Below, piece by piece: positions 3,629 through 7,093 of a stretch of 64,000 nt of DNA; the stretch's first letter is position 1, and each line of letters starts with the position of its first letter. The stretch is from Phycisphaeraceae bacterium D3-23 (GTDB lineage: Bacteria > Planctomycetota > Phycisphaerae > Phycisphaerales > Phycisphaeraceae). The position numbers and the translations under genes are program-made. The DNA is taken from positions 2,108,001 through 2,172,000 of the forward strand of contig CP114179.1 of assembly GCA_039555135.1 (NCBI GenBank), in the 5' to 3' direction. The notes beneath the pieces were generated by a model. It searched no databases. It saw nothing but the letters and a program-made list of their open reading frames with translations, and was not told the DNA's origin.

Positions 3629-4954
3629 ATGAAACCCACCCCCCGCCCCTACCGTCTGGCGCTTGCGCCGCTTGCCCTGTCCGGCTTCCTCTTGATGCCC
3701 GGGTGCGGGTCGTCGCCGAGCACCGCCGCGCCGCCGGTGATGAGCGCGCCGACGACGCAGGCCCGTGCCGAAGTCTTTGAGCAGATCGTCGCGACGCTTT
3801 GTGAGGACGTGATGGAGGGGCGCGACGCCGGGACGCGCGGGATCGATATTGCGCGCGACTATCTCGTGTACCAGTACGCCAAGGCTGGCCTCGAGCCGGG
3901 CTTTATCGTCGACGGTGTGACGACCTACACCCAGGAGTTCCAGCTCGGCATCGGGCGCGACGAAGCGGGCGACGTCATCAACGCCCCGATCAGCAACATC
4001 GGCGGGATCCTCCCGGGCGTCGGCGAGCTCGCGGATGAGGTCGTCATCATCGGCGCGCACTACGACCACATCGGCTACGGCGACATCGGCAGCCGCGCGC
4101 CCCGCCGCCGCGGCGAGATCCACCCCGGCGCCGACGACAACGCCTCGGGCACCGCCGGGCTCGTCATCCTCGCCCGCCACATGTCCGACTTCGCCCGCGA
4201 AAACCCCGACACGCCGAGGCGCACCATCCTCTTCACCAGCTTCGCCGGCGAAGAGCGCGGGCTGCACGGCTCGCGCTTCGAGACCGAGAACGCCGAGTCT
4301 TGGCCCTTCGAACTCACCGACATCAGCGGCATGATCAACATGGACATGATCGGCCGGCTGCGCGACGAGAAGCTCATCGTCTACACCACTGAGACCGGCG
4401 AGGAGTGGCCCGCGTGGATCACCGAGGCCAACGAAAGCTCCGGCGACCCGCTGAACGTCGCGATGGAAGTCGATGCGCCCGGCGGCAGCGACCACAGCAG
4501 CTTCATCCGCGTTGGCGTCCCGGCGGTGTTCTTCTTCACGGGGCTCCACGCCGAGTACCACACGCCCGACGACACGCCAGAGACGCTCAACAACCTCGGT
4601 GCCGCTCGCGTGCTCAATGTCGTGGGCGCGACGCTCGAACGTGTCGCGACCGACCCCAGCCGGGTGACGTTCATCCCGCCCCCGCCGCGCCAGCCGCGCG
4701 CGTTCATCGGCGTGATGCTGGGCGAGACCGACGAGCCGGGCATCCTGTTCGAGTCGGTGATCGACGGCGGGCCGGCGGCCGAGGCGGGCGTCATCGACGG
4801 CGACCGCGTGATCGCCATTGATGGCGAAGCGGTCGAGGGGCTCCGCGACCTCCGCAGTGTCCTGCGCAGCTCTAAGCCCGGCGACGAAGTCACCCTCACC
4901 GTCGTCCGCGACGGCGAAGAGATCGAGTTCACCGTCGAGCTCGGCGGGCGGTAA
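3629..4954 (+). CDS. M28-family zinc aminopeptidase lipoprotein with C-terminal PDZ domain
   Basis: 441 residues. A lipobox (LMPGC, Cys26) predicts a lipid-anchored protein outside the cytoplasmic membrane. The M28 di-zinc ligands are all present: His144 in GAHYDHIGYG, Asp169 in GADDNASGTAG, the Glu pair in AGEERGLHGS near 208-209, Asp in MINMDMIG and His in GGSDHSSF. Residues about 353-441 form a PDZ domain (FIGVMLGE, then GPAAEAGVIDGDRVIAIDG), which usually presents substrates or partners. It sits 21 bp after the ABC permease, so it may be co-transcribed with it. A strong terminator follows at 4977. Peptide substrate unknown. Confidence 0.93.
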   Translation: MKPTPRPYRLALAPLALSGFLLMPGCGSSPSTAAPPVMSAPTTQARAEVFEQIVATLCEDVMEGRDAGTRGIDIARDYLVYQYAKAGLEPGFIVDGVTTYTQEFQLGIGRDEAGDVINAPISNIGGILPGVGELADEVVIIGAHYDHIGYGDIGSRAPRRRGEIHPGADDNASGTAGLVILARHMSDFARENPDTPRRTILFTSFAGEERGLHGSRFETENAESWPFELTDISGMINMDMIGRLRDEKLIVYTTETGEEWPAWITEANESSGDPLNVAMEVDAPGGSDHSSFIRVGVPAVFFFTGLHAEYHTPDDTPETLNNLGAARVLNVVGATLERVATDPSRVTFIPPPPRQPRAFIGVMLGETDEPGILFESVIDGGPAAEAGVIDGDRVIAIDGEAVEGLRDLRSVLRSSKPGDEVTLTVVRDGEEIEFTVELGGR

Positions 4955-4976
4955 GACGTATCCTTCACAGAAACCT

Positions 4977-5006
4977 AAAGCCCGGGGGTGGCCACCCCCG
5001 GGCTTT
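4977..5006. terminator. Perfect 30-bp palindrome, intrinsic terminator
   Basis: The right half is the exact reverse complement of the left half (AAAGCCCGGGGGTGG and its complement), ending in a short T-rich tract. It lies 23 bases after the M28 peptidase stop. A near twin of the same design occurs at 23329-23358, so this may be a recurring bidirectional terminator of this genome. Confidence 0.8.
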
Positions 5007-5060
5007 ACTTTTGCCTCGGGGACGCGCGACGCCGCAACCCGGACCGCCTACGATAGAGCC

Positions 5061-5537
5061 ATGCACGAAGACCCCCTACTGAACGCGGAGTTCCTTGAAA
5101 CCCTCGGCGTGGTCATCGTCGACCACGGCTCGCGCCGCGCGGAGAGCAACGCGATGCTCGAAGCATTTGTCGAGCTGTTCATTCAGCACTGCCCGCAGTA
5201 CCCCATTGTCGAGCCTGCGCATATGGAGCTGGCCGAGCCGTCGATCGCGACGGCGGTTGAGCGCTGCGTCGAGCGCGGCGCGGAGCACGTCGCTATCTGC
5301 CCGTACTTCTTTGCGCCGGGCAAGCACTGGCACAAGGATATCCCCGAACTGGCGAAGGACGCGGCCGAGCAGGCCGGTGTGCCGTGGGTCGTGACCGCGC
5401 CGATCGGGCTGACGCCGTTGATGGTCGATGTGATCGACAACCGGCTGCAGCACTGCCTGTCACACATCGCGGGCAATGCCGAGGAGTGCGAATCCTGTGC
5501 GGGGATGGACCGCTGCAGGCTGCACGAGGTCGCATAA
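5061..5537 (+). CDS. cbiX: CbiX-type sirohydrochlorin chelatase
   Basis: 158-residue single-domain chelatase of the CbiX(S)/SirB class, which inserts metal (cobalt, iron or possibly nickel) into sirohydrochlorin for cobalamin, siroheme or related cofactors. The family pattern is seen in VVIVDHGSRR (catalytic His22) and in ICPYFFAPGKHWHKDIPEL, with the second metal-binding region. Length is that of the short archaeal-type or half-size enzymes. The C-terminus has an unusual cysteine group, CESCAGMDRC, suggesting a bound iron-sulfur cluster or zinc. ATG at 5061 begins right where family similarity starts; the longer upstream frame overlaps the M28 gene and is rejected. Metal specificity cannot be told. 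Confidence 0.87.
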   Translation: MHEDPLLNAEFLETLGVVIVDHGSRRAESNAMLEAFVELFIQHCPQYPIVEPAHMELAEPSIATAVERCVERGAEHVAICPYFFAPGKHWHKDIPELAKDAAEQAGVPWVVTAPIGLTPLMVDVIDNRLQHCLSHIAGNAEECESCAGMDRCRLHEVA

Positions 5538-5658
5538 CGCTCTATTTTTGCCGTAATCTCGCCTTTTTCCGCGATACCACTTCCGGCAGGCGGGGTTGTG
5601 CTGGTAAACTGTTGCCGGATCGTTGTGGCTCAGAGACTTAGCTCCAGAGGGATTGATG

Positions 5659-6516
5659 ATGCTTAGACTCCGTAACGGGTTTGTATGCCTGGCGGCTGCG
5701 GCGTGCCTGGTGTTCGCGGCCGGGGCTTGGGCGGGTGACGCCCCCGAGGGCTGGGCCAGCGGTGAAGACGCGGCCCAGGCGCTGGCGGTTGCCAGGGAGC
5801 GCGGTCTGCCGGTGGCCTTCCTCTACATGGATTTCGACGAGCGGTGAGGCCCCTGCGTCCGGGCCGGTCGGTCCATGGCGGAGGACAGAGCAACAGCGGG
5901 CATGGTGCGGGTGGTCGTTAATGCCGGTGCCGACGAGGAGAACGCCGAGGGGATGCAGGAGGTGGCTCGTGGCCTGATTGGTCAGGTCCCCCGGGCTTCG
6001 AAGTATCAGCCCCGGCTGTTCTTCCTCACATCCGAGCAGGCGGTGATCGGGTATGTCGATTACCTGGACGACCACGACGGCCCGTACGCGTCTGGTGTTC
6101 AGGCCCTGCAGATTCTCGAGTGGGCCGAGGACGCGCAGCGTGTCGTGTCGCGTGCGGACCGCCGCGCCACGCGGGGTCGGTACGCCGAAGCGCTCGGCGA
6201 GTGGGACGAGTTGCTGGAGCAGGACCGCCGGGTCAGCCACCTGATCCGCGTGGCCTTGGGCCACACCGACGCGGAAGAACCCACCGACGACACGCCGGCG
6301 AGCCCGATCTTCCAGGGCCTCCGCGAAGCGAAGTTCGCCGAGTACGAGGCCATGGCCCGCGAGCAGCTCGACGCCGCGCGCGCGTTGGCCGACGCGGGAG
6401 ACGATCAGGCCGCGATGCGTCTGTTGCGGAACCTGGTCCGTGGCCCCGAGGCGTTTTCCACGACCGCGGAAGCCAAGGCCCTGTACGACGAGGTCGTCGA
6501 GAAGCTGCGCTCCTGA
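5659..6516 (+). CDS. Exported thioredoxin-like protein with in-frame TGA (candidate selenocysteine, UGPC)
   Basis: Read through the TGA at 5845-5847 this is a 285-residue protein. Residues 1-19 are a signal peptide (cleavage near AWA-GDA). Residues 25-130 resemble a thioredoxin fold: helix AAQALAVARERG, strand LPVAFLYMDF, then DER-U-GPC with the TGA as residue 63 and Cys66 in the usual CxxC spacing. The same frame continues without other stops to 6516 with protein-like sequence, ending in helical, TPR-like repeats. Just after the TGA a stem-loop (5861-5874, loop GGUC) fits a bacterial SECIS. ATG 5659 has GAGGG seven bases upstream; ATG 5656 is an alternative. The other reading is a nonsense mutation or sequencing error. 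Confidence 0.65.
5857..5886 (+). promoter_or_regulatory. Candidate bacterial SECIS hairpin
   Basis: GGGCC (5861-5865), loop GGUC (5866-5869) and GGUCC (5870-5874) form a five-pair stem. An outer helix GUCC/GGAC (5857-5860 with 5883-5886) is possible across a 3' bulge. The loop starts 18 bases after the in-frame TGA and its first two bases are G, which matches the spacing and the loop-G rule known for bacterial SECIS elements. The GC-rich local sequence makes chance hairpins common, so this supports but does not prove Sec insertion. Confidence 0.5.
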
Positions 6517-6567
6517 TCCATTGGCCTGGGCGATCGATCGCCGGGCGAAACCACCTAAACCAAGGCG

Positions 6568-6599
6568 AACCGCCGGCTGCGCTCAGCTGGCGGTTTTCT
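6568..6599. terminator. Bidirectional intrinsic terminator
   Basis: Hairpin with arms AACCGCC and GGCGGTT, extended inside by GCTG/CAGC, followed by TTCTT on the plus strand and preceded by an A-rich stretch. It separates the rightward thioredoxin-like gene from the leftward acidic membrane protein gene. Confidence 0.6.
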
Positions 6600-6616
6600 T
6601 CTTGTGACGCGGGGGT

Positions 6617-7093
6617 CTACCGCCAAGGCTCGTCGGGATCGACCCCGTCGTCGGGTTCTTCTTCCTCATCGTTGGGATCGGGATCGACGTAGGGCTTATC
6701 TTCAAACAGGCCGTAGGGGTCGTCCTCGCCCTCGTCTTCCTGCTGCTCGCTGGCGATCGCGTCGTCCCAGGTCGAGCCCGTGTCGGTCGCATCGCTGTCG
6801 TCGTCGCCGGGGTCCTCGGCCGCGCGCTGCGCGATCTCCTCGGGGGTCAGCGCATCGGCATCGACGTAGCGCTCCGAGCTCGTTTTCCAGACGTCGGCGT
6901 GCGGGACGCCGGGGTCGTTTCGGCGTTTCTCGATCTCGCGTTCGAGCATTACCGTCCGCCGCCGCGCCATGCGTCGCGCAATGATGACCGAGAGTACGAG
7001 GATCACCGCCACGAGCCCGACGGCCGCGATCATGACGATCATGCCGTAGGCCTCGAGCAGCGTCTCCTGGTTGTCCTGCGCGAGCTGAAGCAT
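6617..7093 (-). CDS. Single-pass membrane protein with acidic tail, function unknown
   Basis: 158 residues. A short N-terminal stretch precedes one transmembrane helix (about residues 17-40) followed by a basic stop-transfer run (RRMARRRT). The rest is hydrophilic, ending in a very acidic, proline-rich tail (about residues 95-158). No family was recognised. It is the first gene upstream (on the minus strand, downstream in position) of the terminator at 6568 and lies head-on to the thioredoxin-like gene. Protein-like composition and clean start ATG at 7093 support coding. The PTPS gene on the same strand ends at 7138, so both may share a transcript. Confidence 0.65.
   Translation of the reverse strand: MLQLAQDNQETLLEAYGMIVMIAAVGLVAVILVLSVIIARRMARRRTVMLEREIEKRRNDPGVPHADVWKTSSERYVDADALTPEEIAQRAAEDPGDDDSDATDTGSTWDDAIASEQQEDEGEDDPYGLFEDKPYVDPDPNDEEEEPDDGVDPDEPWR

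Follow-up and report, generated by a model that had tools for sequence, protein, structure and literature searches.

The 64,000-nucleotide stretch of Phycisphaeraceae bacterium D3-23 DNA analysed here (the window) contains a forward-strand frame from position 5659 to 6516 that is crossed by a TGA at 5845. The question raised by this locus is whether the TGA ends a protein, marks a damaged gene or is read as selenocysteine (Sec). A first-pass annotation of the window had suggested that the frame may encode a Sec-containing exported thioredoxin. This reading is supported by the sel genes of the genome, by Cys-containing orthologues and by a fit to the model of bacterial SECIS elements, and the probability of an exported thioredoxin-fold selenoprotein, with UGA 5845 read as Sec63, is put at 0.92.

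The reading frame and its orthologues

Retranslation bears out the earlier statement that the TGA at 5845 is the sole break in a single frame. The coding sequence (5659–6516) comprises 285 codons and a terminal TGA (6514–6516) when the TGA at 5845–5847 is counted as a residue (codon 63), and frame translation reveals no other in-frame stop and no frameshift between 5659 and 6516. The start codon, ATG 5659, is directly preceded by a second in-frame ATG at 5656 and lies 7 nt downstream of a Shine-Dalgarno-like AGAGGG (5646–5651; read by eye). Judged by eye, residues 1–25 (5659–5733) form an apparent signal peptide with Arg residues, a hydrophobic core and an AxA motif, likely cut after AWA, and similar signal-peptide-like starts are present in both aligned orthologues (see below). 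The proposed Sec codon belongs to the motif DER-U-GPC (residues 60–66), and G+C content by codon position differs little between the parts before (76/55/79%) and after the TGA (76/46/85%). Since long chance open reading frames are common in this DNA, with 51 of at least 80 aa overlapping the first 12 kb of the window, the open frame alone proves little, and homology along nearly the whole length is what counts. Just downstream of the gene, a terminator-like inverted repeat followed by T-rich DNA was read by eye at 6568–6604; a below-threshold match to the Rfam DnaX element (6539–6598) touches this repeat.

A protein search across 301 genomes of the order produced matches in four, namely the genome itself, two genomes of the same genus that carry orthologues (G076 and G088) and one genome with a weak partial match (L013). 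The orthologues show 41% and 38% local identity to the window protein over nearly its whole length in the protein search; once aligned, the sequences are 40 and 35% identical. Because identity is present before the site (32 and 29% for residues 1–62) as well as after residue 63 (43 and 37%), the homology extends through both halves in a single frame. At the place of the window UGPC, both orthologues carry CPKC, with the codons TGT and TGC for its first residue. The TGA stands, as claimed previously, at the first Cys of a CxxC-type motif, and the homologue residue at position 63, which the first-pass annotation had proposed to inspect, is Cys in both. As stated in the available text of PMC1088965, a selenoprotein should have at least two Cys homologues at the UGA position, and this is what is found here (2/2 orthologues).

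The orthologous loci also match the window in gene order, the gene lying between a CbiX gene, with an M28 peptidase gene beyond it, and a gene for a small acidic protein. In the window, the corresponding neighbours are an M28 peptidase with a PDZ domain (3629–4954, forward strand), which is present in 5/5 genomes of the genus, a CbiX-domain protein (4818–5537, forward strand), the listed frame of which overlaps the peptidase gene and probably has its true start further in, and the small acidic protein (6617–7093, reverse strand), which served as the downstream marker of the locus in the gene-order comparison. The tally for the genus is one Sec form, two Cys forms and two genomes (G026 and G139) in which the neighbours are present and the gene is absent from the syntenic place. 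A hidden TGA form in G026, missed by the search, was considered and rejected, as the syntenic place holds no such gene. In the genus, the nearest peptidase neighbour is that of G026, and this genome is without the gene, which may therefore be dispensable.

Searching 392 genomes of the phylum with a profile yielded eight further matches, all weak and partial. These eight and L013 were excluded from the orthologue count for being weak and covering the protein only partly. The site is covered in three of the nine weak matches (L013, L040 and L045), which read CGPC, CPLH and CPHC, respectively, with the Cys assigned by eye. No relatives were found by a single-sequence scan of wider genome and viral contig collections, and a profile scan of the wider genome contig collection returned the two orthologues and nothing else.

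Sec machinery and the hairpin downstream of the UGA

A genome search for selA, selB, selC and selD, as had been suggested on first reading, retrieved all four genes within about 8.4 kb (C1:3621249–3629622). They comprise selA (450 bits), selB (361 bits over 2–579 of 581), a tRNA-Sec with a TCA anticodon (selC; 65 bits) and a selD that itself contains one in-frame TGA, at DCGG-U-AGK. The formate dehydrogenase of the same genome likewise has a TGA at its Sec site (CAAT-U-H). Across the order, SelA is found in 22 of the 301 genomes, with 21 above the cut-off. SelD was searched in 20 of these SelA genomes, two with a weak or split SelA being left out, and contains one TGA in 17 of the 20 (L033, L089–L103 and L107); among the remaining three, one genome has a complete SelD lacking a TGA, and in two the match is partial and begins past the site. 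No SelA match was obtained in the two genomes carrying the Cys orthologues, G076 and G088, the latter being only 89% complete.

The first-pass annotation had also described a stem-loop that begins its loop with G 18 bases after the TGA. This hairpin is recovered (5852–5884; −18.9 kcal/mol in a fold of bases 5845–5890): an apical 5-bp stem (5861–5865/5870–5874) closes the loop GGUC (5866–5869), which starts 18 nt past the UGA and occupies bases 22–25 counted from the U of the UGA. For bacterial SECIS elements, the available text of PMC13188914 gives a loop of 3–9 nt with G in one of its first two places, a stem of 4–16 bp, a distance of 16–37 nt from the UGA and an energy of −7.5 kcal/mol or lower, and the hairpin, with its 4-nt loop, 5-bp stem, distance of 18 nt and energy of −18.9 kcal/mol, lies within these limits.

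The position of the loop is shared with other selenoprotein genes. GGUC stands at bases 22–25 in Escherichia coli fdhF and in the formate dehydrogenase gene of the same genome; in the genome's VPGU-type thioredoxin gene these bases read GGUU, and in the G026 relative of that gene GGUG. The Cys orthologues, by contrast, carry GGCC and GCGC at the same bases, without GGUC. The stem sequence differs from that of the fdhF SECIS, and base 17 is G in the window gene and U in both fdhF and the genome's own formate dehydrogenase. U at base 17 is important for E. coli SelB. Among the TGAs of the window, GGT at bases 22–24 from the U occurs in 38 of 1781, and GGT combined with a loop of 4–5 nt on a stem of 4 bp or more in 3 of 1770 (both strands, window ends left out). 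TGA 5845 is one of these three and the only one in long open frames, the other two sitting in short open stretches.

The fold of bases 5845–5890, proposed earlier as a check, places a hairpin that agrees with the SECIS model where fdhF has its own, although the stability of this hairpin carries no information by itself. For DNA so rich in G+C the stability is unexceptional (z −0.45; 57/200 shuffles fold at least as well). The hairpin is kept in the fold of bases 5839–5899 (z −0.28; 69/200 shuffles at least as stable) and gives way to another structure in the 85 bases 5836–5920 (z +1.19; 178/200 shuffles). Such folds discriminate poorly here, as over 39 bases the hairpin of the genome's own formate dehydrogenase does not come out as the best fold either. 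An Rfam search gave no match at the window hairpin, to a SECIS family or otherwise. SelD SECIS sites of the order were read at 16 of the 17 TGA-bearing loci (L107 unread), and the best hairpin, chosen by a rule of our own, lies 29–32 nt from the UGA in 16/16 sites, with a CA-GGU-UG tip 32 nt past the UGA in 11/16. Given this distance, as opposed to 18 nt in the window gene, hairpin spacing is not uniform for the clade. GGU is found at one fixed distance from the UGA in three selenoprotein genes of this planctomycete, its selD not being among them.

The lone stop at the catalytic Cys, the well-placed hairpin, the Sec genes and the Cys orthologues make a selenoprotein much likelier than a pseudogene or an error. 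Among the points against it are that the Sec form has been observed in one genome only and that Cys to UGA is a single substitution, for which reason a fresh nonsense mutation or a base error would look the same at the codon. In a young pseudogene, an ancestral Cys codon would have mutated to TGA by chance in a dying gene, which takes one step from TGT or TGC and would agree with the absence of the gene from the syntenic locus of G026 and of G139; it is nevertheless improbable, as the sole lesion in 285 codons would have struck precisely the residue at which Sec is of use. The genome moreover has Sec genes, the TGA precedes a GGUC hairpin that occupies the fdhF position and is missing from the Cys orthologues, and the frame shows neither a second stop nor a frameshift. 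A sequencing or assembly error, in which the true codon would be a sense one (TGC or TGG, for example), has even less in its favour: errors are possible, as the frame of another Sec gene of this genome (L146) is interrupted here and whole in its relative, but a substitution error would not create a hairpin at the exact place, and the genome is in one contig and 98.26% complete. Equally implausible is a split into two products, with a short secreted peptide terminated at 5845 and a separate 213-aa protein from the open frame that begins at ATG 5875, as the frame runs through the site in both orthologues, no Shine-Dalgarno-like sequence is seen by eye ahead of 5875 and the second product would have neither a signal peptide nor the fold's first strand.

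Predicted fold and known relatives

An AlphaFold2 model built from three sequences (mean pLDDT 71.7, pTM 0.56; means per ten residues of 58–78 over residues 31–160 and above 90 in 231–285) consists of two parts. Residues 29–154 (5743–6120) are predicted to form a thioredoxin-fold domain, whose best VIA-align match among thioredoxins has a Z of 9.8 (rmsd 2.9, 105 residues), to be read with the moderate confidence of the model and with the caution that VIA-align often gives Z values of 7 to 8. In the model, residue 63 stands just ahead of the helix that follows the strand, which puts UxxC at the N-end of the second helix of the predicted thioredoxin fold. Residues 155–285 (6121–6513) make up a predicted helical C-terminal part that is possibly TPR-like (AlphaFold2 model, Foldseek). 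The earlier designation as a thioredoxin holds for the fold and is too narrow for the protein, which has a helical C-terminal half in addition and finds its best full-length Foldseek match in YbbN/CnoX (3qou; E 3.0e-5, 278 columns, 15% identity). As the whole-chain TM-score to YbbN is only 0.23, it is the domain order that is alike rather than the whole shape.

Sequence family models do not recover the protein. No Pfam model reaches its cut-off (Thioredoxin_7 scores 13.6 of 27 bits, and TPR matches are also below), 0 NCBIfam families, selenoprotein models included, match at E up to 1, and a PDB sequence search gave two chance-level matches only. The gene would thus add a selenoprotein that the tested family models miss, and routine annotation would probably split or drop it.

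Bacterial UxxC thioredoxin-fold selenoproteins are well known (inventory of PMC13188914; PMC1794560). As far as the available text of these sources describes them, they are like the window protein in the Sec replacing the first Cys, the SECIS-like hairpin just downstream and the thioredoxin fold, whereas the window protein has a signal peptide (by eye) and a helical C-terminal part and is without an NCBIfam match or a Pfam match above cut-off. The UxxC trick itself is known, and the protein family is one not previously catalogued for Sec. YbbN/CnoX resembles the window protein in combining an N-terminal thioredoxin fold with C-terminal helices. According to the available text of PMC6282202, the motif of E. 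coli CnoX is SXXC and the protein is not active as an oxidoreductase, in contrast to the UGPC and the signal peptide (by eye) of the window protein. A chaperedoxin of the CnoX/YbbN kind would also act as a holdase and pass its substrates on to GroEL/DnaK; an exported protein could not meet GroEL, the signal peptide being in this case read by eye. The VPGUxxT family NF041383 comprises Sec proteins with Thioredoxin_7, of which the same genome (L146) and G026 (L147) have examples. It is a separate family by sequence, marked by the motif VPGU and a second TGA further on, and these two examples share with the window gene the place of GGU after the UGA. The earlier remark that few planctomycete selenoproteins are described needs adjusting insofar as some are already in print, as indicated by the available text of PMC4807772. 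In the titles and abstract starts of the literature searched (planctomycete or Phycisphaer selenoproteins, bacterial SECIS, CnoX), no description of this protein was found.

Proposed function, history and further Sec candidates

If the gene encodes a selenoprotein, a ribosome arriving at UGA 5845 would meet SelB and Sec-tRNA-Sec bound to the GGUC-loop hairpin just downstream, and selenocysteine would be put in at residue 63. The protein would be exported after its synthesis, and UGPC at the start of the second helix may then serve as a fast thiol/selenol redox site, as in a disulfide reductase or isomerase, with envelope proteins as its putative substrates and perhaps with the helical C-terminal part holding it. 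A more specific and rather speculative proposal is that of an exported selenocysteine chaperedoxin, a thioredoxin-TPR protein of the planctomycete envelope in which the UGPC redox site would be joined to a helical domain that binds peptides, the Sec having been gained from a Cys ancestor within the genus whose Cys relatives have no SelA match.

The simplest history suggested by the sequences would be a Cys-to-Sec change in the lineage of this genome, as the orthologues have Cys and their genomes no SelA match; alternatively, Sec may have been lost on the other branch. The genus could in this respect be regarded as a small natural experiment in Sec gain and loss.

Several other candidate Sec genes were observed. 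The genome studied here has another thioredoxin-like selenoprotein candidate, with the motif VPGUQGC, at about 1058–2200 of L146 (G000:C1:4524500–4527200). This candidate carries a further TGA within the MsrA-like motif AMF-U-FWEG, and its frame is broken between the two TGA sites. Its relative in G026 (L147, 935–2095) scores above the NF041383 cut-off and has an intact frame of 386 aa with two TGA. Further Thioredoxin_7 matches with an in-frame TGA are L148 and L149 in G160 and L150 in G026; L148 reads CIP-U-HAC and L149 CER-U-HAC, each followed by a hairpin with the loop GGU 26 nt from the UGA. Finally, a Molybdopterin-family (PF00384) protein (L063, G003:C1) carries an in-frame TGA in the context QARI-U-HSATVA, with a GUU-loop hairpin after it.
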